In this document: positions 31,665 to 58,024 of the stretch, piece after piece
Layout: each line of letters starts with the position of its first letter
Numbering within the stretch: position 1 is the first letter of the stretch
Position numbers and translations under genes: made by a program
The notes under the pieces: model-generated
What the model saw: only the letters and a program-made list of their open reading frames with translations
The model's database searches: none
Told to the model about the DNA's origin: nothing
NCBI GenBank assembly: GCA_018000995.1
Contig: JAGNIU010000003.1
Location: forward strand, 62,001-126,000
Length of the DNA stretch: 64,000 bases
Reading direction: 5' to 3'
DNA from: Bacteroidia bacterium
GTDB taxonomy: Bacteria > Bacteroidota > Bacteroidia > B-17B0 > Aurantibacillaceae

Positions 31665-32444
31665 ATGATTAATAAGATATCTAACAACATTAAGTTTTTG
31701 CGGCAGTTAAAAGGCTTATCGCAGGAGCAAATGGCCGACGAATTAGACGTAACCCGTGCCCGCATTGGGGGTTACGAAGAAGGTCGTAACGAACCGCCTA
31801 TCGATTTATTAATCAAATTATCGGAGTATTTTCACATTGCTATTGATGCCCTTATTAAGGGGGATTTAAAAAAGACCAACCCCGATGCTTTAATGAAGAT
31901 TGGTAAGAACCGTATTTTATTTCCGGTTATTATCGATAACGAAGGGGATGATATGATAGAATTAATTCCTGTTAAAGCATCAGCCGGGTATTTACGCGGT
32001 TATTCTGATCCTGATTATATTGAAAGATTACCACGAATGAAACTTCCGTTTTTACCAGTGGGTAAACATCGTGCGTTTCCTATTAAGGGAGATAGTATGC
32101 CGCCAATTAAAGAAGGTTCATTTATCATTGGAAAATATTTAGAGAAGTTGGATGACATGAAAGATGGTACTTCTTATATAGTGGTAACCAAAGACGATGG
32201 TTTAAGTTACAAACGTTTACATAACTTAAATAAAAAAGAAGGCACCGTTGAATTGCATAGCGATAATAAAACCTACCAGCCCTATAAAGTACGCCTCGAA
32301 GATATTTTAGAATTGTGGGAATACACCTGTTGCATTAACACCGGCGATTACCGCGATGAAGAATTAAACCTCGATAGCATTATGAATATGCTGAAAGGTT
32401 TGAAAATAGAAATTGAGCATATCAAAAGGCAGAAAGTAAATTAG
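31665..32444 (+). CDS. XRE-family regulator with S24/LexA-like autopeptidase domain
   Basis: The 259-residue protein has an N-terminal helix-turn-helix (LRQLKGLSQEQMADELDVTRARIGGYEEGRNEP, residues 12-44) and a C-terminal S24 domain. The LexA-type cleavage site is likely Ala107-Gly108 (KASAGYLRGY). The catalytic dyad is Ser144 (IKGDSMPP) and Lys183 (LSYKRL). It may therefore inactivate itself on a DNA-damage or stress signal, as LexA and CI do; many Bacteroidota paralogues keep these residues and their triggers are unknown. It is divergent from the E-D-C TPR operon and followed six bases later by the AHSA1 gene, likely an operon. Confidence 0.88.
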   Translation: MINKISNNIKFLRQLKGLSQEQMADELDVTRARIGGYEEGRNEPPIDLLIKLSEYFHIAIDALIKGDLKKTNPDALMKIGKNRILFPVIIDNEGDDMIELIPVKASAGYLRGYSDPDYIERLPRMKLPFLPVGKHRAFPIKGDSMPPIKEGSFIIGKYLEKLDDMKDGTSYIVVTKDDGLSYKRLHNLNKKEGTVELHSDNKTYQPYKVRLEDILELWEYTCCINTGDYRDEELNLDSIMNMLKGLKIEIEHIKRQKVN

Positions 32445-32450
32445 ACTCGT

Positions 32451-32855
32451 ATGATAACAATACAAGCTACCGTAAATTCACCAATAGAAAAAGTTTGGAA
32501 AGTTTGGACCAGTCCTGAACACATTACAAAATGGAATAGTGTCTCTGATGATTGGCATACACCAAAAGCGGAAAACGATTTACGCGTTGGTGGAAAATTC
32601 TTATCGCGTATGGAAGCGAAAGATGGAAGTATGGGTTTTGATTTTATCGGGACTTACGATGCGGTTGAAACAGGTAAACTTATTTCTTACGTTATGGAAG
32701 ATGGTCGTAAATGCAAAACCACATTTACAGCAAACGGTAATGAAACTGAAATAACAACAGTGTTTGATGCGGAAACAGAAAATTCGGAAGAGCTACAACG
32801 CTCAGGTTGGCAAGCTATTTTAAATAGTTTTAAAATGTATTGCGAAGGGAAGTAG
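32451..32855 (+). CDS. SRPBCC/AHSA1-domain protein
   Basis: The 134-residue protein is a single START/AHSA1-like domain, as shown by the opening ITIQATVNSPIEKVWKVWTSPEHITKWN and the later GGKFLSRMEAKDGS and GWQAILNSFKMYCEG segments. Such proteins form a hydrophobic helix-grip cavity for small ligands. In Bacteroidota they are mostly of unknown role and sometimes act in stress responses. It follows the XRE-S24 gene by six bases and is probably co-expressed with it. Confidence 0.85.
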   Translation: MITIQATVNSPIEKVWKVWTSPEHITKWNSVSDDWHTPKAENDLRVGGKFLSRMEAKDGSMGFDFIGTYDAVETGKLISYVMEDGRKCKTTFTANGNETEITTVFDAETENSEELQRSGWQAILNSFKMYCEGK

Positions 32856-32915
32856 GATTTAGAATACTTCAGAGACGGGACCTAATGGCAAAAAAATGCC
32901 AACACAAAGACGCAC

Positions 32916-32943
32916 GGTCATGCTGAACTTGTTTCAGCATCTT
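32916..32943 (+). repeat. Left hairpin unit (R1) of the GIY-YIG element
   Basis: This 28-nt unit opens GGTCATGCTGAACTTG and ends TTTCAGCATCTT. ATGCTGAA pairs with TTCAGCAT around a five-base loop. Its end is 10 bases from the GIY-YIG start codon. The same unit, with one base changed in the loop, recurs at 33946-33973. Confidence 0.85.
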
Positions 32944-32953
32944 TTGAAGAATC

Positions 32954-33277
32954 ATGAAATTACAAAAAAGATTATTTGTCTACATAATGTCAAATTATAG
33001 TAGAACAACTTTTTACATTGGCGTTACAAATAGTATAGAACGACGAGTGGCGGAACACAAACAATTGAAAGGTTCAGAATTCACAACCAAATACAAGCTT
33101 ACTTATTTAGTTTATTACGAGGAAATATTTGGTGCCTTAAACGCAATTTTAAGAGAGAAACAACTGAAAAATTGGCATCGCGAATGGAAGCTTAACCTCA
33201 TAAAGGAGATTAATCCTGAAATTGAAGACCTTGCTAAAGATTGGGTGTTAGAAGATCCCGAAACAAGTTCGGGATGA
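32954..33277 (+). CDS. Single-domain GIY-YIG endonuclease ending inside a hairpin repeat
   Basis: The 107-residue protein is a minimal GIY-YIG nuclease of the YhbQ/COG2827 group. The first motif is VYI (residues 9-11) and the second is YIGVT (21-25). Also present are Arg30/Arg31, His35 (RRVAEH), Glu68 in ILREKQLKNWHREWK as the likely metal ligand, and LIKEINPEIEDLAKDW after it. There is no DNA-binding domain fused to it. The final residues DPETSSG and the TGA stop are encoded by the right hairpin repeat, while the left repeat ends ten bases before the ATG. Coding and repeats thus form one compact 364-bp unit. It lies between the AHSA1 gene and the convergent DUF502 gene. Confidence 0.88.
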   Translation: MKLQKRLFVYIMSNYSRTTFYIGVTNSIERRVAEHKQLKGSEFTTKYKLTYLVYYEEIFGALNAILREKQLKNWHREWKLNLIKEINPEIEDLAKDWVLEDPETSSG

Positions 33278-33279
33278 CC
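33252..33279 (-). repeat. Right hairpin unit (R2), overlapping the end of the GIY-YIG gene
   Basis: Read on the minus strand, this 28-nt unit opens GGTCATCCCGAACTTG and ends TTTCGGGATCTT, the same frame as R1 but with a CCC/GGG stem in place of GCT/AGC. Its plus strand codes for the terminal DPETSSG residues and supplies the TGA at 33275-33277. It is identical to the unit at 33974-34001. Confidence 0.85.
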
Positions 33280-33297
33280 GAATGCATAGAATAAATT

Positions 33298-33867
33298 TCA
33301 ATCAACATCAGTAACTCCACCACTCACAATAAACTTCATCGTTTCGGCGGCATCGGCATCAATTGGTTTTATTTGCGACTGTGGAACAATCACTAATCGA
33401 CCTGAGAGCGAGTAGGAGTAAGGTAAATACACTGCTACTTTATCTTTAATTTTTAAATCCTTTAAATCTTCGTGGGTAACAAACCCCATTTCTTCAATGT
33501 TTGCTTGCGGATTCGTTAACACTAAAACAGGTTTATTAAATTTTTTCTTATTCCCCATAAAAGCATTTGTAAAATCTTTTAGGGGTGAATAAATATGACG
33601 AATGAAAGGCGCGTGTTCTAATTTGTTTTCAATAAACGAAAAGAAACTTTTGAAAATAAAAGTAGAAGCTAAAATTCCCATCCCCATAATAAAAGCTAGG
33701 GTAAACACAAATCCTAACACTGTATTTATCGCGGAGTAATTGGTAATTCCTAATCCCGAAAAAATACCGGAGAAAAAATCAAATAACTTAAAAATAATGC
33801 CTACCGTAATAGCAAATGGAATAAATAAAATGAGTCCTTGTAAAAAGTAATTGAGTAAGCTCTTCAT
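33298..33867 (-). CDS. DUF502-family membrane protein
   Basis: The 189-residue protein has two membrane segments (YFLQGLILFIPFAITVGIIFKLF, about 6-30, and TVLGFVFTLAFIMGMGILAST, about 48-70). A soluble domain then has the DUF502 phrases APFIRHIYSPLKDFTNAF and VAVYLPYSYSLSGRLVIVPQSQIKPID. The family occurs in many bacteria and plant organelles (LIKE-COV) without a firm biochemical role. The gene converges on the GIY-YIG element, whose end is 20 bases away, and starts downstream of the terminator of the deoxyhypusine-synthase-like gene. Confidence 0.88.
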   Translation of the reverse strand: MKSLLNYFLQGLILFIPFAITVGIIFKLFDFFSGIFSGLGITNYSAINTVLGFVFTLAFIMGMGILASTFIFKSFFSFIENKLEHAPFIRHIYSPLKDFTNAFMGNKKKFNKPVLVLTNPQANIEEMGFVTHEDLKDLKIKDKVAVYLPYSYSLSGRLVIVPQSQIKPIDADAAETMKFIVSGGVTDVD

Positions 33868-33884
33868 AATACAAAACTACACAA

Positions 33885-33914
33885 CAAAAATCCCCGCTTT
33901 TTTAGGGCGGGGAT
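33885..33914 (-). terminator. Intrinsic terminator of the deoxyhypusine synthase-like gene
   Basis: ATCCCCGC (33890-33897) pairs with GCGGGGAT (33907-33914). On the minus strand the stem is followed by a U-run (A-run at 33886-33890). It ends the transcript that comes from 34988, whose 3' untranslated part contains the hairpin pair at 33946-34001. Confidence 0.75.
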
Positions 33915-33945
33915 ATATTATGAACATTGTATTTTTAACAGAGGT

Positions 33946-34001
33946 GGTCATGCTGAACTTGGTTCAGCATCTTAAGATCCCGAAACAAGTTCGGGATGAC
34001 C
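33946..34001. repeat. Joined inverted hairpin pair (R3/R4) without an interior gene
   Basis: R3 (33946-33973) matches R1 at 27 of 28 positions and R4 (33974-34001) matches R2 exactly, in the same left/right orientation as around the GIY-YIG gene. They meet at CTTAAG with no base between them. R4 abuts the stop codon (34004-34002) of the deoxyhypusine-synthase-like gene. It looks like an empty version of the 32916-33279 element. Confidence 0.85.
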
Positions 34002-34988
34002 TTACCACCCAAGAATCCAAGCAAAAATAAGCGGCGCTACAATAGTCGCATCACTTTCTACTATGAATTTTGGTGTATTAATATCTAATTTACCCCAGGT
34101 AATTTTTTCGTTTGGCACAGCGCCAGAGTATGAACCATAAGAAGTTGTTGAATCTGAAATCTGACAGAAATAACTCCAGAAAGGAATCTCATGCATTCCC
34201 ATATCTTGGTATAGCATCGGCACAACACAAATAGGAAAATCGCCGGCAATACCACCACCAATTTGGAAAAAGCCAACACCTTTTCCACCTGAATTTTTCG
34301 GATACCAATCTGCTAACCAAGCCATGTATTCGATACCGCTTTTCATGGTGCTTGCTTTAATATCTCCTTTGATTACATACGATGCGAAAATATTTCCCAT
34401 TGTGCTGTCTTCCCAACCCGGAACAACGATTGGTAAATTTTTCTCAGCGGCAGCTAACATCCAACTGTCTTTAGGATCAATTTCGTAATACTGTTTTAAT
34501 TCGCCGCTCAATAAAATTTTGTACATGTATTCATGCGGGAAAAATCTGTTGCCTGCAGTATCAGCATCTTTCCAAATTTTATAAATGTGTTTTTGTAAAC
34601 GACGGAACGCTTCTTCCTCCGGAATACAAGTATCAGTTACGCGGTTGAAATGGTTCTCTAATAAATCCCACTCATCTTGAGGAGATAAATCACGGTAATT
34701 TGGAACACGTTTGTAATGACTATGCGCTACAAGGTTCATGATATCTTCTTCTAAGTTTGCGCCTGTGCAAGAGATAATATCAATTTTTCCTTGACGAATC
34801 ATTTCGGCTAATGATTTTCCAAGTTCTGCGGTACTCATTGCACCGGCAAGCGTTACCATCATTTTACCACCTTCGGTTAAATGCGTTTCATAACCTTTAG
34901 CGGCATCAACTAATGCTGCTGCGTTAAAATGTTTATAGTGATGCTCGACAAATTTTGATATCGGGCCTTTGTTTGCTGCTGCGCTCAT
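34002..34988 (-). CDS. Deoxyhypusine synthase-family protein
   Basis: The 328-residue protein belongs to the deoxyhypusine/homospermidine synthase fold: TLAGAMSTAELGKSLAEMIRQGKID, ISCTGANLEEDIMN (NAD-binding) and VVPGWEDSTMGNIFAS. The active-site region SYSGAVPNEKITWGKL has a Lys at about residue 300, corresponding to the enzyme-substrate imine Lys of eukaryotic deoxyhypusine synthase. Bacteria have no eIF5A, so the likely reaction is spermidine-dependent aminobutyl transfer to another acceptor, such as putrescine. The true substrate is unknown. An exact TAGATTTG -7 element lies 21 bases upstream of the start. Confidence 0.88.
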   Translation of the reverse strand: MSAAANKGPISKFVEHHYKHFNAAALVDAAKGYETHLTEGGKMMVTLAGAMSTAELGKSLAEMIRQGKIDIISCTGANLEEDIMNLVAHSHYKRVPNYRDLSPQDEWDLLENHFNRVTDTCIPEEEAFRRLQKHIYKIWKDADTAGNRFFPHEYMYKILLSGELKQYYEIDPKDSWMLAAAEKNLPIVVPGWEDSTMGNIFASYVIKGDIKASTMKSGIEYMAWLADWYPKNSGGKGVGFFQIGGGIAGDFPICVVPMLYQDMGMHEIPFWSYFCQISDSTTSYGSYSGAVPNEKITWGKLDINTPKFIVESDATIVAPLIFAWILGW

Positions 34989-35009
34989 AATTCTTAATTT
35001 TTAGAGCTA

Positions 35010-47638: not shown

Positions 47639-50600
47639 TTAATACTGTAATACCACAAATCCGTTAACGGTTTTTAAACTTGTTTCACCTTTAAATTCTA
47701 AAATGTAATAATAAGTTCCTTGTGGTAATTTCTGATTACCTAAAGTGCCGCTGACATTTGGCATACCTCCCCAAGTGTTATCGTAATTATCCATTTTGTA
47801 AACCTTATTACCCCAACGGTTGTAAATCGTTAAAGTATTTTCTGTTTTCTGAATGCCTTTAATTACAAAGAAATCATTTACACCATCACCATTTGGCGTG
47901 AACACCTCAGGTACTAAGAATTTATCAATGATTAATACAGTTGGTACGTTATCAGAAGGTTCATTCCAAACACCGTTTCCGTTTATATCAGGATTGTTTC
48001 CGTTGTTAGAAGAATCTCGCACTGCAACAGTTGAAGTACCAAACGCACTTCCTATTGCAGTGTTTTTGATAATTGTAACAGTGTCAGGAATAACATTAAT
48101 AGAGAACACAACTTTATTTACCGTGTTTGGCGCCATTTTGCTACCTGCTGTTACAATTAAATTAGGATCGCTGTTACCATTAAATGCAGAGTTAGCAGTT
48201 AAAGTACCGCTAAGCATAGATGGTCCGCTCTTCATACTGTAAGATGCAGGATTTTTAATTGTTGTTCCCGCTAAGCTATCTTTCAATACAATGTTTCTTA
48301 ATGTATCATTTCCTAAGTTGTGAATCGAAACAGTATAAGTGATATCGTAGCTACCATCTATTAACACCTTACTTAACTCACCTTCTTTAGTCACACCGAA
48401 GAAAGTATTAGGCGTTAAGTTAAGTGGGGTAGGTGTATTGTTATTAGTTGGATTACCATCGTTATCCGGGTCCGTATTTAAACCAACCTGTGATGAATCA
48501 GCTACTATTGTAGAAGCGCCACCAATTGCAGTACCTAGCACACTGTTATTAAATGTTCCAAATACTCCATTAGGTAAAACATCAACTGTAAATACAATTG
48601 TATCTACTTCGCCAATCGCTAGTGAACTGGTAACTGTGTTTGTTAACACAGGTTGTGATGAACCATCGAATGTAGCATCTAACGTTAAGCTTGTTACCGG
48701 AGTAATAATTACCGGAGCAGAACTTACAGTAAATGTTGTAGGTAATGGGAATGTATTACTTAAGTTCTCGGTTAACATCACATTATTTAATGTAGCAAAG
48801 CCTGTGTTCTTAACAACAACTTTGTATGTAACTCCATAAGTACCATTCGTGTTTGTTGTTACAGCCGTTATTGCTTTAGCTAAACCAAGTGAATTATTAA
48901 CCGCGCAATCAACTGGAATTAATACCAAAGTAGTGTCCTTTATACAACCATTTGCACCAAAGAATCGAATAGTGTAAGGCGTATTAACAAGAGGATTACC
49001 TAATGAAGTAGTAATAGTTCCTGTAGCAGGAATTATTGTTGCCGTAGCATAAGTTGCGCTTCCTGTATAAGTCGGCCCGGTAACAAAATCGTATTTATCA
49101 TTTGGATTAATGAAGTTACTTACAAGAATAGTTCCATTGTTATCAGTAACAGTACCGGTACAAGTTGCAGGAATAATAGTTGCAGTAATGGCTACAAAAG
49201 TATCCGTTGTTGCGGCAACAGTATTTGTTGAAGTACAACCCGAAGCAGGATCAAATGCACTAACGGTGTACACACCTCCAACCGAAGTACTGAAGCTGGT
49301 TGCGGTTGATGTGAAGCTTGAAGGACCGCTCCAAGTATAAGTTACTGCTGCAACTGTTGAGCTTACACTAATATTAACTGTATTACTAATACACGTAATA
49401 GTTCCAGTAGATGTTAAGCTAACTGTTGGTCCGGCTGTATTGGTTATAATTGCCGTTGTTGCTGTTGTGATACAACCATTCGCTAAATCAATAACCGATA
49501 AAGTATAAACACCACCAACTGTTATACCTGTTGGATTTTGAGTTGTGGATGTGTATGAACTTGGTCCCGACCATTGATAAGCTACGTTTGTTGAAGTGGT
49601 ACTACCAAATAAATCAACCGATGTGGTTAAACAAGTTAATGTTCCGCTATTAGTAGCTGTTACGTTTTGCGGACTTTCTAATACATTAATTGTAATAGTA
49701 GCAGTATCTGCGGCACAAACCCCATTTACACCTATTACTGAATAAGTAGTAGTTATGGTTGGAGATACAACTACGGTAGAAGTAGTCATGTTACCTGGAA
49801 GCCATGTATAAGTTAAAGCACCACCTGTAGTTAATGTTGTAGATAAGCCGCTACAAATTGTAGTTGCAGATGCTGCGGCAGTAACTGTTGGATTTACAAA
49901 TACAGTTATTGAAACAGTATTTGTTCCTTGACAGCCCATAGTATTAGTTCCCGTTACTGAATAAGTTGTGGTTACCGTTGGAGTAACCGTAATTGTTCCG
50001 CCTGCCATAGCACCCGGATTCCAAGTATAAGTTGACGCGCCGCTAGCTGTTAAAGTTGAAGAATTTCCAATACATAATGCTGTTGGCGTTGCAGACGAAG
50101 TAATTGTTGGTGTATTGATAATAACGATTACTGTGTTTGAATTAGTACAACCTAATGCATCAGCACCTGTAACAGTATAAACTGTAGTTACACTTGGTGT
50201 AACGCCAACCGTAATTGCTACCAACCCGCCAGGATTCCATGTATAAGTTGTTGCGCCAAATCCGGATAATGTTGCGGTAGCACCAACACACATAATGCTT
50301 GGACTGGCAACTCCTGTAACGGTTGGACTTGGATTTACTGTTAATGAAATAGTATTTGTATTTGTACAAGAACCATTACTTCCTGTAATTGTGTAAACTG
50401 TAGTTGCTGTTGGAGTAACTATAACATTCGTTCCAGTTAAAGATCCCGGCATCCAAGTATAAGTTGTTGCGCCGTTACCGGTTAATGTTGCAGAGTTACC
50501 TGCACAAACTGCAGTTGAAGAACTAACAGCACTTACAGTTGGTATTGGAGAAACATTTAAAGTAATAGTTGTTGCGCCGGCACAACCAAATGCATTAATA

Positions 50601-53600
50601 CCTATTACAGTATAAGTGGTAGTAACCGTTGGGCTAACAACAACACTTGTTCCTGTTGTAGCAGAAGGTAACCAAGTATAGGTTGCAGCACCTGAGGCAG
50701 TAATTGTAGCAGTACTGCCAACGCAAATTGAAGTTGGTGAAGCAATAGTTGTAATAGTAGGTGTATTTACATTTACAAGTACTGTACTTGTTTTTGTACA
50801 ACCAAATGAATTCACACCTGTAACAGTATAAACTGTAATAACAGTAGGAGAAACTACTACCAAGCTACCAGTAATTGCCGGAGGCATCCAGGTATAAGAT
50901 GTAGCACCACTCGCAGTTAATGTTGAAGTACCACCTACACATAAAATAGTAGGGCTTGCAATTGTTGTAATAGTTGGACTAGGATTAACAGTAATACTTA
51001 TCGTTTTAGTGTTAGTACAGCTTCCATTTGCGCCAATAACAGTATAAGTTGTATTTGCAGTTGGGGTCACAACAACCGTTCCACCTGTTAGTGAACCTGG
51101 ATTCCAAGTATAAGTTGTAGCGCCACTGGAAGTTAATGTTGCTGATAATCCTGAGCATAAAACAGTAGCTGATGTATTAGCAGTTATGGTTGGACTTGTA
51201 TTCACCACTAAAGTAACAGTATTTGTTTTTGTACAACCTGTAGCATTTATCCCGGTAACAGAATAGGTTGTAGTAATGGTTGGACTTACGATAACAGCAG
51301 AACCTGTTACAGCAATCGGCATCCATGTATAAGTTAATGCGCCCGTTGCAGTTAACGTTGCAGTTTGTCCTGTACACATTGTAGTTGGATTTGCAATTGC
51401 AGTGATTGTAGGCGATGCTAAAACTAAAAGATTAACAGTTTTGGTTCCTGCACAAATTCCGTTAGAACCCGTTACAGTGTATTGTGTTGAGATTGTAGGT
51501 GTAATCACAACAGATGTTCCTGTTAATGATCCAGGCATCCACGTATAAGTAACAGCACCACCACCTGTTAAGGTAGCTGAACTTCCTGCACAAACTGCAG
51601 TAGGAGAGCTAACGGCCGTTATAGTAGGTGTTGAGTTAACTGTAATGCCAATCGTTGTTGTACTAGTACAATTTCCATTCGCACCTGTTAATGTATAAGT
51701 TGTAGTTATAGTAGGAGAAACAGTTACCAAAGTACCACTTAATGAGCCCGGCATCCAAGTATAAGTTGTAGCACCGTTGGCAATCATTGTTGCAGTGCTA
51801 CCCGCACAAAGTGAAGTTGGAGTTAAAGTAGTTGAAAGTACAGGATATGTATTCACAACAATTGAAACTGTTGCATTAGTTGAACAAATTCCATTAGAAC
51901 CTGTAACAGTATAAATAGTAGTTGAAGTTGGAGAAACAACAACCGGAGAACCAATTAAAGCACCCGGATTCCAAGTATAAGATATAGCACCTGTAGCGCT
52001 TAATGTTGCAGTGTCACCTAAACAAATTACTGTTTTGCTCGTTAATGCTGTAACGCTTGGAGCAGAGAATACAGTTATTGAAACAGTATTAGAATTGCTA
52101 CAACCTGCAGTAGAGCCGGTAACAGTATATGTTGTATTAATAGTTGGACTAACAACAACTGAAGTTCCGGTTAACGAACCCGGCATCCAAGTATAAGTTG
52201 TTGCACCGCTTCCGGTTAAAGTTGCTGAACTTCCCGCACACATTGAAGTAGGATTTGAAACAGCTGTAACAGTTGGAATAGGATTTACTGTTAACGAAAC
52301 AGTTTGTGTATTTGTACAAACACCATTTGCTCCTGTTAAAGTATAAATTGTAGTCGCAGTTGGTGTAACAACGGTACTTGTGGTTGTTATTGAGCCCGGC
52401 ATCCAAGTGTAAGATGTAGCTCCGCTTCCTGTTAAGGTTGCTGAACTTCCAGCGCAAATTGTTGTTGGGTTAGATATTGCAGTAACCGTAGGGGTTGTAG
52501 TAACCGTTAGTGTTACCGCAACTGTACTCGAACAAGTACCATTCGAGCCTGTTAATGTATATTGAGTTGTTACTGTTGGAGTAACCACAACATTCGTTCC
52601 TGTTAATGATCCCGGCATCCATGTATATGATGTAGCACCATTTCCTGTTAAAGTAGCAGAGCTGCCCGAACAAATTGCCGTTGGTGAACTAACTGCTGTA
52701 ACGGTTGGACTAGGATTTACTGTTACTAAAACTGTATTTGAATTTGTACAATTTCCGTTTGCTCCAGTAATAGTATAAGTTGTTGTTACAGTTGGAGAAG
52801 CAGTAACTGTTCCGCCTGATAAAGAACCCGGCATCCAAGTATAAGTTGTAGCTCCAGATGAAGATAATGTAACTGTATTGCCGGCACATATTGTTGCAGC
52901 CGACGTTGAGGCTGTAACAGTAGGAGTTGTTGTAACGCTTAATGAAATAGTAGTATTGCTAACACAACCTAAGGCATTAGCACCACGAACAGTATAGGTT
53001 GATGATACGGTTGGCGTAACAACAATAGGATTTCCTAAAATAGGCCCAGGTAACCAACTATACGTTCCAACCGCACCTGATGCAGTAAGAGTAGAAGATT
53101 GTCCTGAACATAGTGCTGTTGGATTAGCAACAGCAGTTATTGTTGGGTTAGGATTAACTGTAATGGTAATAGTGGAGAATCCTATACAGCCCGAAGCATT
53201 TGTTCCACCTAACGTATAAGTAAGTGTAGCAGTTGGAGAAACAACAACACTAGGAGAAACCATTGCTCCCGGCATCCATGTATAGGTTACAGCACCGTTT
53301 GCTGTTAAAGTTGTGTTTCGTCCCGCACAAATAATTCCGGTTATAGGATTACTCGTTGCACTAACAGTTGGACTTGCGTTAACTGTTAAAGAAACAGTTT
53401 GTGTATTCGTACAAACGCCATTGGCTCCTGTTAAAGTATAAATAGTTGTTGAAGTAGGTGTAACTACAGTTGTTGCTGTTGTAATTGAACCGGGCATCCA
53501 AGTATAAGTTGTAGCGCCGCTTCCGGTTAAAGTTGCACTCCTTCCTGCGCAAATCGCAGTTGGATTTGTTACTGCAGTTACAGTTGGTTGTGGTGTAACA

Positions 53601-56600
53601 GAAACAGTAACTGCAATAGTACTCGAGCAAGTTCCGTTGTTTCCTGTTAAAGTATAAATAGTTGTTGTTGTGGGCGTAACTACAGTTGTTGCGGTTGTTA
53701 TAGAACCCGGCATCCAAGTATAAGTAGTCGCACCACTTCCAGTTAAAGTAGATGAAGAACCTGAACAAATTGCTGTTGGACTTGCAGAAGCAATTAATGT
53801 TGGACCAGGAGTTACCATTAAAGTAACAGTATTCGAATTTGTACATCCTGAGGCTGTAGCTCCGATAACTGTATAAGTTGTGGTTACGGTTGGAGAAACA
53901 ACAACTGTTCCCCCGCTTAATGCACCCGGATTCCATGTGAAGGATGTTGCCCCACTTGAAGATAAGGTTGCAGAACTTCCTGAACAAATACTTGGCGATG
54001 AAACAGAAGCAGTAACAGTTGGATTTGGATTAACTGTTAATGAAACTGTTCTTGTGTTTGAACAAGTGCCGTTAGAGCCTGTAACTGTATAAACTGTAGT
54101 AATTGTAGGTGTAACAGTTATTGTACCTCCTATTACTGCACCAGGATTCCATGTGTAAGATGTAGCTCCTGATGAAGTTAATGTTGCTGAAGCCCCTACG
54201 CAAATTGCAGTAGGATTAGCTACTGCTGTTAAAGTTGGTAGTGGAGTAACAGATAAACTAACCGCAACAGTACTTGAACAAGTTCCGTTATTTCCAGTTA
54301 AAGTATAAGTTGTAGTTACGGTTGGTGTAACCGCAACAGTTGCTCCTGTTAAAGACCCCGGCATCCATGTATAAGTTGTAGCGCCACTTCCTGTTAAAGT
54401 GGAAGAGCTTCCAGCACAAATTGCCGTTGGATTAGCTACGGCGGTAACAGTTGGATTTGAGTTTACAGTTAATGAAACTGTATTAGTAGTTATACAACTT
54501 CCATTTGCTCCGGTAACTGTATAAATAGTTGTTACGGTAGGAGTAACAGTGATTGTTCCGCCTGTTACTACACCCGGATTCCATGTATAAGAGGTAGCGC
54601 CCGATGAAGTTAAAGTTGCAGAAGCTCCCGAACAAATAGCTGTTGGATTTGAAGCAGCAGTAATTGTAGGAGTGGCAGTAACCGTTAGTGTTACAGTTCT
54701 TGTATTAGAACATGTACCGTTATTTCCTGTTAAAGTATAAGTAGTAGTAATTGTTGGAGTTACTGCAATAGTCGCAGTTGTTAATGAACCCGGCATCCAG
54801 GTATAAGTTGTGGCACCACCTCCAGTTAAAGTTGCAGAAGCACCTGAACAAATGGAAGTTGGATTAGCAACCGCAGTTACAGTAGGATTTGGATTCACTG
54901 TGATTGAAACCGTATTTGAATTTGTACAATTTCCGTTAGCTCCGGTAACGGTGTAAATAGTTGTTGTTGTAGGTGTAACAATTACTGTACCTCCTGCTAA
55001 AGCGCCCGGATTCCAAGTATAAGTTGTAGCTCCTGATGAAGATAATGTAACTGTGCTACCTGAACAAACTGTTGCTGATGAAGCAGAAGCTGTTATAGTA
55101 GGACTTGTGGTAACCGTTAGTGTTACGGTACGTGTAGTTGTACAACCCAGAGCCGAAGCGCCGGTTACAGTGTATGTAGTTGTTATAATAGGATTAGTTG
55201 TTACTGTTCCGCCCGATAAAGAACCCGGCATCCAAGTGTAAGATGCGGCACCGGTTGAAGTTAATGTTACTGTAGTTCCTGCGCCCGAACAAATTGAAGT
55301 TGGGTTAGCAACAGCAGTAAGTGTTGGGCTTGGACTAACTGTAACAGAAACATTAGCAGAATTTGTACAAGTTCCGTTAGAACCAATTACTGTATATATT
55401 GTATTTGCTGTTGGTGTTGTAACAACGGTTCCGCCTGTTAATCCACCTGGATTCCAGGTATAAGTTGAAGCGCCGCCTGCTGTTAATGTTAACGATGTTC
55501 CGGCACAAATAGTGGATGAAGATATTGATGCTGTAACTGTGGGAGGTGTGTTAACCGTTAGCGAAACAGTTCTTGTATTACTACATGTTCCGTTAGAACC
55601 TGTAACCGTATAAATAGTTGTGGTGATGGGAGAAACAGTAATCGTTCCGCCTGATAAAGAGCCCGGCATCCAAGTATAAGAAGTAGCACCTGATGAAGTT
55701 AATGTTGCTGAACTTCCCACACAAATAGCTGTTGGATTACTAACTGCTGTTAAAGTAGGTTGTGCATTTACAGTTAAAATTACTGTACGTGTTCCAATAC
55801 AAGATAATGGACTAGTACCACTCACGGTATATGTTGTTGTTATAGTTGGAGTAACTGTAACAGTTGCACCTGATAAAGAACCCGGCATCCATGTATAAGT
55901 TGAAGCGCCGCTTGATGTTAAGGTAACTGTTGCACCACTTCCAAAACAAATTGAAGTTGGATTAGAAACTGCTGTTAAAGTTGGACTTGGATTAACCGTA
56001 ATTGAAATAGTAGTTGTATTTGAGCAAGTGCCATTTGAACCTGTAACGGTGTAAGTTGTATTTGTAATAGGTGTTACAACTACATTTGTTCCTATTAAAG
56101 AACCAGGCATCCAGGTATAAGTTGTGGCGCCACCTGCAGTTAATGTTAATGATGTTCCGGCACAAACTGTTGATGAAGACGCTGAAGCCGTAACAGTAGG
56201 AGGAGTATTAACAGTAGTTTGAACTGTTCTTGTTGATGAACAAGTTCCGTTAGAACCGGTAACAGTATAAATTGTTGTAATGATTGGAGAAACCGTAACT
56301 GTTCCACCTGATAAAGAACCCGGCATCCAAGTATAAGATGTAGCGCCAGATGAGGTTAATGTAGCCGAACCTCCAACACAAATAGCTGTTGGATTACTAA
56401 CAGCAGTTACAGTAGGAGAAGGGAGAACTGTTAACATAACGGTCTTCGTACCGGGGCAAGATAAAGTGTTTGTTCCTGTAACAGTATAAATGGTTGTTGA
56501 AACCGGATTTACTGAAACTGATGCGCCGGATAAAGAGCCGGGCATCCAGGTATAATTTGTAGCGCCCGAAGCTGTTAATGTAGCGCTGCTTCCAACGCAA

Positions 56601-58024
56601 ATTGAAGTAGGAGAGCTTAAAGCTGTTATTGTTGGACTACTTCCAACCGGGACAAGTAAAGTGGCTGTTCCAATACATCCACCTGATGATCCGCTAATAG
56701 TATAAGTAGTGGTAACTGTTGGACTTAAAGCAACAATATTTCCCACAATATTTCCTGGGTTCCATGTATATGATAGGGCTCCTGTGGCTATACAATTGGC
56801 TGAACCTGGGGGGCAAATTGTGCCAGTTAAATTAAATGCATTAACTGTTGGAGGTGTGCCAACCGTTATTGCAACAGTAGACGAACTTGTACAAGTTCCC
56901 ACACTGCCTATTACTGTATAAGTTGTGTTAACGGCTGGTGATACAACAACTGCAGATCCGGTTAAAGAACCCGGCATCCAAGTATAAGTTGTAGCGCCGG
57001 TTGCAGTTAAAGTAACTGAGCCTGGAGGACAAACTGTATTTGAAGAGGCAGAAACATTTATGGTTGGTGTACTAACATTAACATTAACGGTTGATGTTCT
57101 TGACCCATTACAATAGCTTAATGTTGCAGAATAAGTTCCGGATGCTGTTGGACAAGGTGTAGCTGTTAAACCTGTAGCTGTAAATCCACCGGGGCCAGCC
57201 CAGTTTACACTAAAACTTGGAGCTGCTGTTGGAACAAATAACCATGATTCGTTATTGGCCGTCCATGCAGTTAAAGTATTTCTGGTAGGAGGAGCAACAA
57301 CAGTAGTTCCGGTTTGATTTTGAATACCGATTAATCCTCTTCCGCTATTCCAAGCCATACAAGCCGTACTATTAACTATGTTAACAGCTATATTGTTGGA
57401 ACCTTCATAAAGAATAATTTGAAAAGAAGAAACAGGTGTAGAACATGAAAATAAAGTTACACCACTCCAATAAGCTACAAATTGACGACAAGGTGCAACA
57501 CCTGTAGTATATGTTCTTACAACTCCACCAGGAAGAGGATCGTAATCTCGGTAAGCACCACAAATAGTATTTCCCGGATGTTCAATTGTGTTTGGTAAAA
57601 TGGCTGTAGTCACCCATGATTCAAATGAATTTGCTCTGGTTAAATCAAAAGTAATCTCACCATTCGAACCTACAAGAAGTTTTCTATAAGTATTTCCAAA
57701 ATAACAAAAGTTAAAACCTATGTTGATAGAGTCACTCCAAACATCATCAGACGAAGTGGAGAAAACATTATTCCCGCCAAAATAAGGCATGGTAGAATAT
57801 GTAACCGCACCAACAGAATAAGTGGTTGTTGATCTTGGTGGTGCCACCATCGTTGCTGTTAAAGCCGCACATTGTCCTGAACAGACAGTGGTTGAAGCAC
57901 CTGTTCCTGCCTGAGCATTAATACTAGGTATAATACACGATTGTGCCGAGCCTTGCTTCGACAAAGCAACTAGGAGTAGAAAAATAGCAATACTACTCTT
58001 TATAAAATTAGTCATACGTTTCAT
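47639..58024 (-). CDS. Giant surface protein with 34 tandem Ig-like repeats and T9SS type B sorting domain
   Basis: The 3461-residue protein has a signal peptide (FIKSSIAIFLLLVALSKQGSAQ) and an N-terminal domain with nidogen-like phrases (YFGNTYRKLLVGSNGEITFD, FQIILYEGSNNIAVNIVN; residues about 60-270). Next come 34 repeats of about 72 residues (residues about 318-2783) on the pattern PTVTAVANPTxIC, SATLTGSGATTYTWMPGSLT, VVTPTTTTTYTVTGxNGxC. Each carries two Cys, probably a disulfide. Two other Ig-like units and two DUF11-like units (TYKVVVKNTGFATLNNV; YTVSIHNLGNDTLRNIVL) follow. The end is a gliding-motility CHU_C domain (PEVFTPNGDGVNDFFVIKG, YNRWGNKVYK). It should form a long fibrous adhesin exported by the T9SS with the two downstream partners. 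Confidence 0.9.
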   Translation of the reverse strand: MKRMTNFIKSSIAIFLLLVALSKQGSAQSCIIPSINAQAGTGASTTVCSGQCAALTATMVAPPRSTTTYSVGAVTYSTMPYFGGNNVFSTSSDDVWSDSINIGFNFCYFGNTYRKLLVGSNGEITFDLTRANSFESWVTTAILPNTIEHPGNTICGAYRDYDPLPGGVVRTYTTGVAPCRQFVAYWSGVTLFSCSTPVSSFQIILYEGSNNIAVNIVNSTACMAWNSGRGLIGIQNQTGTTVVAPPTRNTLTAWTANNESWLFVPTAAPSFSVNWAGPGGFTATGLTATPCPTASGTYSATLSYCNGSRTSTVNVNVSTPTINVSASSNTVCPPGSVTLTATGATTYTWMPGSLTGSAVVVSPAVNTTYTVIGSVGTCTSSSTVAITVGTPPTVNAFNLTGTICPPGSANCIATGALSYTWNPGNIVGNIVALSPTVTTTYTISGSSGGCIGTATLLVPVGSSPTITALSSPTSICVGSSATLTASGATNYTWMPGSLSGASVSVNPVSTTIYTVTGTNTLSCPGTKTVMLTVLPSPTVTAVSNPTAICVGGSATLTSSGATSYTWMPGSLSGGTVTVSPIITTIYTVTGSNGTCSSTRTVQTTVNTPPTVTASASSSTVCAGTSLTLTAGGATTYTWMPGSLIGTNVVVTPITNTTYTVTGSNGTCSNTTTISITVNPSPTLTAVSNPTSICFGSGATVTLTSSGASTYTWMPGSLSGATVTVTPTITTTYTVSGTSPLSCIGTRTVILTVNAQPTLTAVSNPTAICVGSSATLTSSGATSYTWMPGSLSGGTITVSPITTTIYTVTGSNGTCSNTRTVSLTVNTPPTVTASISSSTICAGTSLTLTAGGASTYTWNPGGLTGGTVVTTPTANTIYTVIGSNGTCTNSANVSVTVSPSPTLTAVANPTSICSGAGTTVTLTSTGAASYTWMPGSLSGGTVTTNPIITTTYTVTGASALGCTTTRTVTLTVTTSPTITASASSATVCSGSTVTLSSSGATTYTWNPGALAGGTVIVTPTTTTIYTVTGANGNCTNSNTVSITVNPNPTVTAVANPTSICSGASATLTGGGATTYTWMPGSLTTATIAVTPTITTTYTLTGNNGTCSNTRTVTLTVTATPTITAASNPTAICSGASATLTSSGATSYTWNPGVVTGGTITVTPTVTTIYTVTGANGSCITTNTVSLTVNSNPTVTAVANPTAICAGSSSTLTGSGATTYTWMPGSLTGATVAVTPTVTTTYTLTGNNGTCSSTVAVSLSVTPLPTLTAVANPTAICVGASATLTSSGATSYTWNPGAVIGGTITVTPTITTVYTVTGSNGTCSNTRTVSLTVNPNPTVTASVSSPSICSGSSATLSSSGATSFTWNPGALSGGTVVVSPTVTTTYTVIGATASGCTNSNTVTLMVTPGPTLIASASPTAICSGSSSTLTGSGATTYTWMPGSITTATTVVTPTTTTIYTLTGNNGTCSSTIAVTVSVTPQPTVTAVTNPTAICAGRSATLTGSGATTYTWMPGSITTATTVVTPTSTTIYTLTGANGVCTNTQTVSLTVNASPTVSATSNPITGIICAGRNTTLTANGAVTYTWMPGAMVSPSVVVSPTATLTYTLGGTNASGCIGFSTITITVNPNPTITAVANPTALCSGQSSTLTASGAVGTYSWLPGPILGNPIVVTPTVSSTYTVRGANALGCVSNTTISLSVTTTPTVTASTSAATICAGNTVTLSSSGATTYTWMPGSLSGGTVTASPTVTTTYTITGANGNCTNSNTVLVTVNPSPTVTAVSSPTAICSGSSATLTGNGATSYTWMPGSLTGTNVVVTPTVTTQYTLTGSNGTCSSTVAVTLTVTTTPTVTAISNPTTICAGSSATLTGSGATSYTWMPGSITTTSTVVTPTATTIYTLTGANGVCTNTQTVSLTVNPIPTVTAVSNPTSMCAGSSATLTGSGATTYTWMPGSLTGTSVVVSPTINTTYTVTGSTAGCSNSNTVSITVFSAPSVTALTSKTVICLGDTATLSATGAISYTWNPGALIGSPVVVSPTSTTIYTVTGSNGICSTNATVSIVVNTYPVLSTTLTPTSLCAGSTATMIANGATTYTWMPGSLSGTLVTVSPTITTTYTLTGANGNCTSTTTIGITVNSTPTITAVSSPTAVCAGSSATLTGGGAVTYTWMPGSLTGTSVVITPTISTQYTVTGSNGICAGTKTVNLLVLASPTITAIANPTTMCTGQTATLTATGALTYTWMPIAVTGSAVIVSPTITTTYSVTGINATGCTKTNTVTLVVNTSPTITANTSATVLCSGLSATLTSSGATTYTWNPGSLTGGTVVVTPTANTTYTVIGANGSCTNTKTISITVNPSPTITTIASPTILCVGGTSTLTASGATSYTWMPPAITGSLVVVSPTVITVYTVTGVNSFGCTKTSTVLVNVNTPTITTIASPTSICVGSTATITASGAATYTWLPSATTGTSVVVSPTVTTTYTVIGINAFGCAGATTITLNVSPIPTVSAVSSSTAVCAGNSATLTGNGATTYTWMPGSLTGTNVIVTPTATTVYTITGSNGSCTNTNTISLTVNPSPTVTGVASPSIMCVGATATLSGFGATTYTWNPGGLVAITVGVTPSVTTVYTVTGADALGCTNSNTVIVIINTPTITSSATPTALCIGNSSTLTASGASTYTWNPGAMAGGTITVTPTVTTTYSVTGTNTMGCQGTNTVSITVFVNPTVTAAASATTICSGLSTTLTTGGALTYTWLPGNMTTSTVVVSPTITTTYSVIGVNGVCAADTATITINVLESPQNVTATNSGTLTCLTTSVDLFGSTTSTNVAYQWSGPSSYTSTTQNPTGITVGGVYTLSVIDLANGCITTATTAIITNTAGPTVSLTSTGTITCISNTVNISVSSTVAAVTYTWSGPSSFTSTATSFSTSVGGVYTVSAFDPASGCTSTNTVAATTDTFVAITATIIPATCTGTVTDNNGTILVSNFINPNDKYDFVTGPTYTGSATYATATIIPATGTITTSLGNPLVNTPYTIRFFGANGCIKDTTLVLIPVDCAVNNSLGLAKAITAVTTNTNGTYGVTYKVVVKNTGFATLNNVMLTENLSNTFPLPTTFTVSSAPVIITPVTSLTLDATFDGSSQPVLTNTVTSSLAIGEVDTIVFTVDVLPNGVFGTFNNSVLGTAIGGASTIVADSSQVGLNTDPDNDGNPTNNNTPTPLNLTPNTFFGVTKEGELSKVLIDGSYDITYTVSIHNLGNDTLRNIVLKDSLAGTTIKNPASYSMKSGPSMLSGTLTANSAFNGNSDPNLIVTAGSKMAPNTVNKVVFSINVIPDTVTIIKNTAIGSAFGTSTVAVRDSSNNGNNPDINGNGVWNEPSDNVPTVLIIDKFLVPEVFTPNGDGVNDFFVIKGIQKTENTLTIYNRWGNKVYKMDNYDNTWGGMPNVSGTLGNQKLPQGTYYYILEFKGETSLKTVNGFVVLQY
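49674..57070 (-). repeat. Array of 34 tandem coding repeats of about 217 bp
   Basis: The segment codes for repeats 1 to 34 of the giant protein. Spacing averages about 217 bp. The sequence is similar at the DNA level, for example the recurring ggcatccaagtataagttgt-like stretches (encoding TTYTWMP) every 200-220 bases. Such similarity favours unequal recombination and copy-number change. A few units carry small inserts (for example units 6, 9 and 18). Confidence 0.85.

Follow-up and report, generated by a model that had tools for sequence, protein, structure and literature searches.

Stand-alone GIY-YIG nucleases of Neisseria, the Ssn proteins, reportedly cut single-stranded DNA at NTS repeats, and thousands of Ssn homologues are said to exist. 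Repeats of the CGTC superfamily, which includes the Neisseria dRS3 elements, are defined by an unpaired CGTC, TGTC or CCTC tag, an 8-9 bp stem starting with AT, a loop of 4-5 nt and a short unpaired tail that is mostly, although not always, CCA, and they occur predominantly as inverted dimers (PMC3733652). They are not associated with transposase genes and apparently have no dedicated transposase (Di Nocera et al. 2013, PMC3733652). The locus described here shares with the REPtron and REPIN-RAYT systems (PMC3116915, PMC2817692) a nuclease gene set between REPs in opposite orientation, doublets scattered over the genome, small derivatives that arose by deletion and one enzyme serving many repeats. 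It differs from the REPtron in that its enzyme is of the GIY-YIG type instead of an HUH tyrosine transposase, and in that its repeats belong to the CGTC superfamily (tag GGTC) and not to the GTAG type. By analogy, the unit may work like a REPtron, though it is not one; the likeness to REP/RAYT drawn in the original prediction, which was made from the sequence of this locus, is apt.

The locus lies in a 64-kb stretch of DNA from a Bacteroidota genome, which was analysed as a whole and is called here the window. Its left end is a CGTC-type REP unit, R1, located at 32916-32943 on the plus strand (GGTCATGCTGAACTTGTTTCAGCATCTT) and identified by its sequence, DNA fold and repetition in the genome. 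Ten bases separate the end of R1 from the ATG at 32954 of a 107-aa GIY-YIG nuclease gene (32954-33277, plus strand), which is Ssn-like by homology and was assigned from a PF01541 match, catalytic residues and model fold. The right end is an inverted REP unit, R2, at 33253-33279 on the minus strand (AGATCCCGAAACAAGTTCGGGATGACC), supported by sequence, translation, DNA fold and genome copies; it encodes codons 101-107 (33254-33274), which read DPETSSG, and contains the TGA stop codon at 33275-33277. The original prediction had described a 28-nt R1 at this position and distance from the ATG, and an R2 supplying the last seven residues and the stop, both of which are confirmed by the sequence and its translation; it had placed R2 at 33252-33279, of which the end is correct and the start lies one base too early. 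Together the gene and its two units form a 364-bp segment, which is intergenic, with an AHSA1 gene and a DUF502 gene as neighbours. The search of Rfam returned no family at the unit and only a sub-threshold match within 32000-35000.

Each unit folds as a perfect 8-bp stem that starts with AT and carries a 5-nt loop. R1 is composed of the tag GGTC, the stem ATGCTGAA/TTCAGCAT, the loop CTTGT and the unpaired tail CTT (DNA fold -6.7 kcal/mol, z -4.4), and R2 of the stem ATCCCGAA/TTCGGGAT and an unpaired GGTC tag (-7.7 kcal/mol, z -4.2), both tags pointing outward. The units are mutually inverted, yet their stems differ (ATGCTGAA versus ATCCCGAA). The window contains four perfect units, namely R1, R2 and both arms of a nearby doublet at 33946-34001, against a mean of 0.03 per 64-kb window expected by chance in first-order Markov simulations. 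The R1/R2 structure is thus real and far above chance. The GTC tag, the AT-starting 8-bp stem, the 5-nt loop, the short tail and the inverted dimers are all features of CGTC REPs. The tag itself is GGTC in the window units and CGTC in many relatives, and the tail of R1 is CTT instead of CCA, which is seen in alphaproteobacterial relatives. A further difference is that the repeats here regularly accompany a GIY-YIG gene, in contrast to the lack of a transposase partner described for these repeats (PMC3733652).

The doublet at 33946-34001 is a free REP pair with no gene inside and no strand assigned, supported by sequence, DNA fold and unit scan; it consists of an R1-type and an R2-type unit 6 nt apart, with tags outward, and folds as two adjacent hairpins. 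Pattern searches of this genome (3.6 Mb) gave 36 matches to the Bacteroidota consensus and none to the reversed control, and six exact copies of the R2 core. At least 13 doublets were recovered, a number that is not a full census because the loci were selected by two arm patterns. All 13 are inverted in the same orientation with tags outward, with an arm spacing of 6-13 nt, mostly 7, and each has two different arms, one of which is ATGCTGAA as in R1. The pair that flanks the gene, ATGCTGAA/ATCCCGAA, is also found among the doublet arm pairs. We observed that the doublets (33946-34001 and L013-L038) never combine identical stems, one arm always being ATGCTGAA, and their arms are therefore unable to form one long perfect hairpin together.

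The protein matches PF01541 over residues 8-81 (E=1.7e-12) and retains the GIY-YIG residues Y10, Y21, G23, R31, H35 and E68, of which R31 is nearly invariant and the others invariant across the homologues. Its structure model (mean pLDDT 90.6) has the GIY-YIG fold, and the nearest solved structures are GIY-YIG domains, none of which passes E 0.001. The best of them, 1zg2, points to the fold of small UPF0213/YhbQ-type proteins; unlike this shared fold, sequence similarity to the solved UPF0213 chains is weak (E 0.04-0.08), and the other small GIY-YIG genes located in this genome do not belong to the clade, nor does any of them have units on each side. The GIY-YIG homing endonucleases of group I introns resemble the window protein as small nucleases proposed to aid the spread of their own gene, but the window gene is intergenic, with no intron and no added DNA-binding domain, and it is bounded by its own repeats instead of sitting within a conserved target gene. 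The closest functional comparison is with a Neisseria gonorrhoeae GIY-YIG protein that is 43% identical over 88 aa, belongs to the same tree group and is encoded next to dRS3-type repeats, and which is probably Ssn itself. Both are stand-alone GIY-YIG proteins with a multi-copy, short palindromic target repeat in the genome; the window locus differs in its repeat sequence and in the tight bounding of the gene by one inverted unit per side, with the stop inside one of them. By homology and repeat partnership, the window gene is very probably a member of the Ssn family, with a putative activity.

The original prediction also proposed that DPETSSG-like ends are shared by other proteins of this group. 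Some homologues do end in DPETSSG or DAETSSA translated from the palindrome, but this is not a defining trait: a repeat-derived C-terminus is used by 15 of the 78 homologues, the majority stopping ahead of the unit, and the repeat-encoded tail of the window protein is predicted to be disordered (last-block pLDDT 52). That the repeat provides the stop is probably a side effect: the D-P/A-E-T-S-S-G/A frame always hits the TGA in ATGAC, and this stop is used in 15 of the 78. The repeat-encoded C-terminus was considered as a conserved functional part and rejected on the same grounds of rarity, predicted disorder and a TGA that is inevitable in frame.

To assess the generality of the arrangement, 80 homologues were obtained through protein similarity alone, and the 78 testable loci were scanned for GTC-tagged hairpins with an 8-9 bp stem, a gene being counted as flanked if units were present on both sides within 150 nt. 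Such hairpins flank 52 of the 78 homologue loci versus 3 of 355 other ORFs on the same contigs; in a second sample, made of the best matches from 296 Bacteroidota genomes, the corresponding numbers are 18/28 and 0/36 for control ORFs. It is virtually certain that the hairpins and the gene are associated, and the data support an association that belongs specifically to this GIY-YIG subfamily and reappears in many phyla. The same arrangement, with local repeats of different sequence, is found in Patescibacteria, Treponema (Spirochaetota), Melainabacteria and Ignavibacteriota, as well as in the alphaproteobacterial genera Sinorhizobium, Rhizobium, Novosphingobium, Azospirillum, Sphingobium, Shinella and Neorhizobium, for which the comparison drew on plasmid records. 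Among the beta- and gammaproteobacteria it occurs in Neisseria gonorrhoeae, with dRS3-type repeats, and in Aeromonas. The tree, in which support is weak at many forks, gathers the homologues into a single large group; of its 115 rows, 78 have both flanks, 27 have one and 10 have neither. Six other GIY-YIG genes of this genome could be placed; all lie outside the group, and none of them is flanked on both sides. The absence of flanking units at other GIY-YIG loci, named in the original prediction as a point against it, is therefore seen for the distant GIY-YIG genes of the genome and is not seen within the subfamily.

Gene and repeats also go together at the level of genomes and of repeat types. 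At least two consensus repeats are present in 33 of 34 genomes with a close homologue versus 45 of the 262 others among the 296 genomes, a comparison uncorrected for phylogeny. In a genus-mate of the window genome (G301), both flanks of the gene have switched together to the repeat type GTCATGCTGACCTAAGTCAGCATC, which has seven copies in that genome and none in the one studied here. For the 52 flanked loci the tags of the nearest units point outward in 40 cases and inward in two. The Bacteroidota sample has 9/18 outward and 7/18 inward pairs, and the inward-facing pairs count against the explanation that we favour. About one third of the homologues have at least one side on which no unit was detected (L285, L289 and L292 are clear cases). 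The association is thus not universal, since no clear CGTC pair was found at the Rhizobium tumorigenes-type homologues (L285, L292) or those of Photobacterium (L289) and Spirosoma (L291).

Evidence for movement is seen in another genus, g57 (G163, G054, G100 and G026), which has many copies of the unit, with REP-to-REP blocks of ~412 bp at unrelated loci. Two of these copies (L225 and L209) are 95% identical along a stretch that starts 14 nt ahead of the left REP and stops exactly where the right REP ends, and the match of a third (L226, 78% identity) likewise spans REP to REP. Four derivatives (L278-L281) have lost the middle of the gene and kept both ends, L279 and L280 being reduced to bases 1-107 and 315-413 of the unit. 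G163 carries the gene at one orthologous site where G026 and G054 lack it. The stretch between sufB and sufC holds the gene in Azospirillum lipoferum 4B; A. ramasamyi, A. oryzae and A. sp. B510, where the flanks are 95.5-97.3% identical, lack it there. We consider it likely that the block is mobile within the family. The window unit itself is an old resident and not a recent insertion: it is single-copy as a full unit in this genome, syntenic in four genus members (this genome, G297, G298 and G301) and absent from G302, G299 and G296, in which the left side differs as well. The search for clean empty sites by DUF502 synteny and g57 flank pairs gave presence/absence differences without readable junctions or target duplication. 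The minimal mobile element of the original prediction finds support in related units, which have spread within genomes as blocks running from REP to REP, but the window gene is old and syntenic, and no clean empty site was found.

Several loci met in these comparisons have features of their own. Shinella (L288) and Azospirillum (L155), which belong to different alphaproteobacterial orders, both carry the unit in the sufB-sufC interval, either because it inserted twice at the same site or through common ancestry. In pSymB of Sinorhizobium medicae (L283, from 701 onwards), a decayed GIY-YIG gene retains its upstream repeat and ~30 codons, and a short match of this type is present in at least eight S. 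medicae records. Another repeat, TTGTAGATGT.AG.TAATTC..TGACA, brackets together with its inverse variable contents at the same site of related species (L209, L210, L217, L212 and L269-L271, in the genus of G163). The framed contents are the GIY-YIG unit, other repeats or nearly nothing, and this TTGTAGATGT-type repeat has the look of a further repeat system whose cargo can be exchanged.

With moderate confidence, we interpret the 364-bp segment as a REP-GIY-YIG-REP unit, REPtron-like in its organization, in which an Ssn-type nuclease lies between inverted copies of its own recognition repeat. That the protein recognises the repeats is very likely, and that the nuclease drives the mobility is an evenly balanced proposition. 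We infer that the nuclease cuts the hairpins on single strands and that this cutting, instead of another enzyme or recombination, moves the blocks; the cutting reported for Ssn lends help to the action on hairpins. In single-stranded DNA arising on the lagging strand, in repair or in transformation, each unit would form a hairpin whose GTC tag stays unpaired, and the nuclease would bind it and nick at or near the tag. Nicks at both units could free or expose the block between them, and the REP-to-REP block, internally deleted versions of it and finally bare doublets might be copied or joined at new sites with host help, in parallel with the copying of REPINs with RAYTs. No GIY-YIG enzyme is known to join DNA, and insertion would therefore need host functions. 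There is an even chance that the complete REP-gene-REP units, their internally deleted forms and the bare doublets constitute one series, and with it a class of mobile elements bounded by CGTC REPs and driven by a GIY-YIG nuclease, the missing partner of these repeats across many phyla.

The main rival to the REPtron-like interpretation is that of a resident Ssn-type factor, which cuts the repeats to tune single-strand DNA recombination or uptake without being a mobility enzyme, gene and repeats passing from site to site and from species to species by homologous recombination through the repeats. The Neisseria work is said to tie the enzyme to transformation via NTS repeats, and the synteny of the window unit in four genus members and the failure to find clean insertion junctions at the g57 sites examined point in the same direction. 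We nevertheless regard it as rather unlikely, given that L225 and L226 share with other copies just the block, ending at the REPs, that ~28 bp of identity between repeats is little for recombination of the RecA type, and that the internally deleted derivatives retain both ends.

HUH (Y1) transposase genes were present in 12 of the 12 genomes tested, including three in this genome, and could act in trans, so that the hairpins might be ordinary REPs moved by RAYT/IS200-type enzymes with the GIY-YIG gene as a passenger. Such a passenger is not expected to remain paired with its flanks across phyla, and by a strand-free measure CGTC-type units lie on both sides of 0/19 HUH loci versus 15/26 GIY-YIG loci; together with the 2013 survey, which saw no association between CGTC repeats and transposases (PMC3733652), this makes the passenger scenario quite improbable. 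Hairpins are also common near gene ends, and REPs are mostly intergenic, as would suit transcription terminators or regulatory structures lying beside the gene by chance. The control ORFs, flanked in 3/355 and 0/36 cases versus 52/78 and 18/28 for the homologues, refute terminators as a sufficient explanation; R1 moreover lies upstream of the gene, and the six other testable GIY-YIG genes of the genome have no units on both sides, which leaves chance placement scarcely credible.

The consistent presence of a GIY-YIG neighbour in many phyla offers a concrete and testable answer to the missing transposase of CGTC REPs. If the REPtron-like interpretation is true, systems pairing REPs with a nuclease had no fewer than two origins, one based on HUH and one on GIY-YIG enzymes. 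Pairs of nuclease and target could then be read from genome sequence alone, which would be useful for single-strand-specific tools. Our literature search found nothing on an association of GIY-YIG proteins with REP or palindromic, CGTC or dRS3 repeats. Part of the priority may already belong to the Ssn work; what appears to be additional here is the explicit link to CGTC REPs across phyla, the spread of REP-to-REP blocks together with their internally deleted forms, and the difference from HUH genes.

Two other regions of the window deserve mention. A deoxyhypusine synthase family gene (PF01916, E=2.5e-41) is encoded on the minus strand at 34002-34988 of this Bacteroidota genome. At 49700-57100, one long stretch is made up of ~30 tandemly arranged units, each of ~216 bp and 60-80% similar to one another, and probably encodes a large repetitive surface protein.
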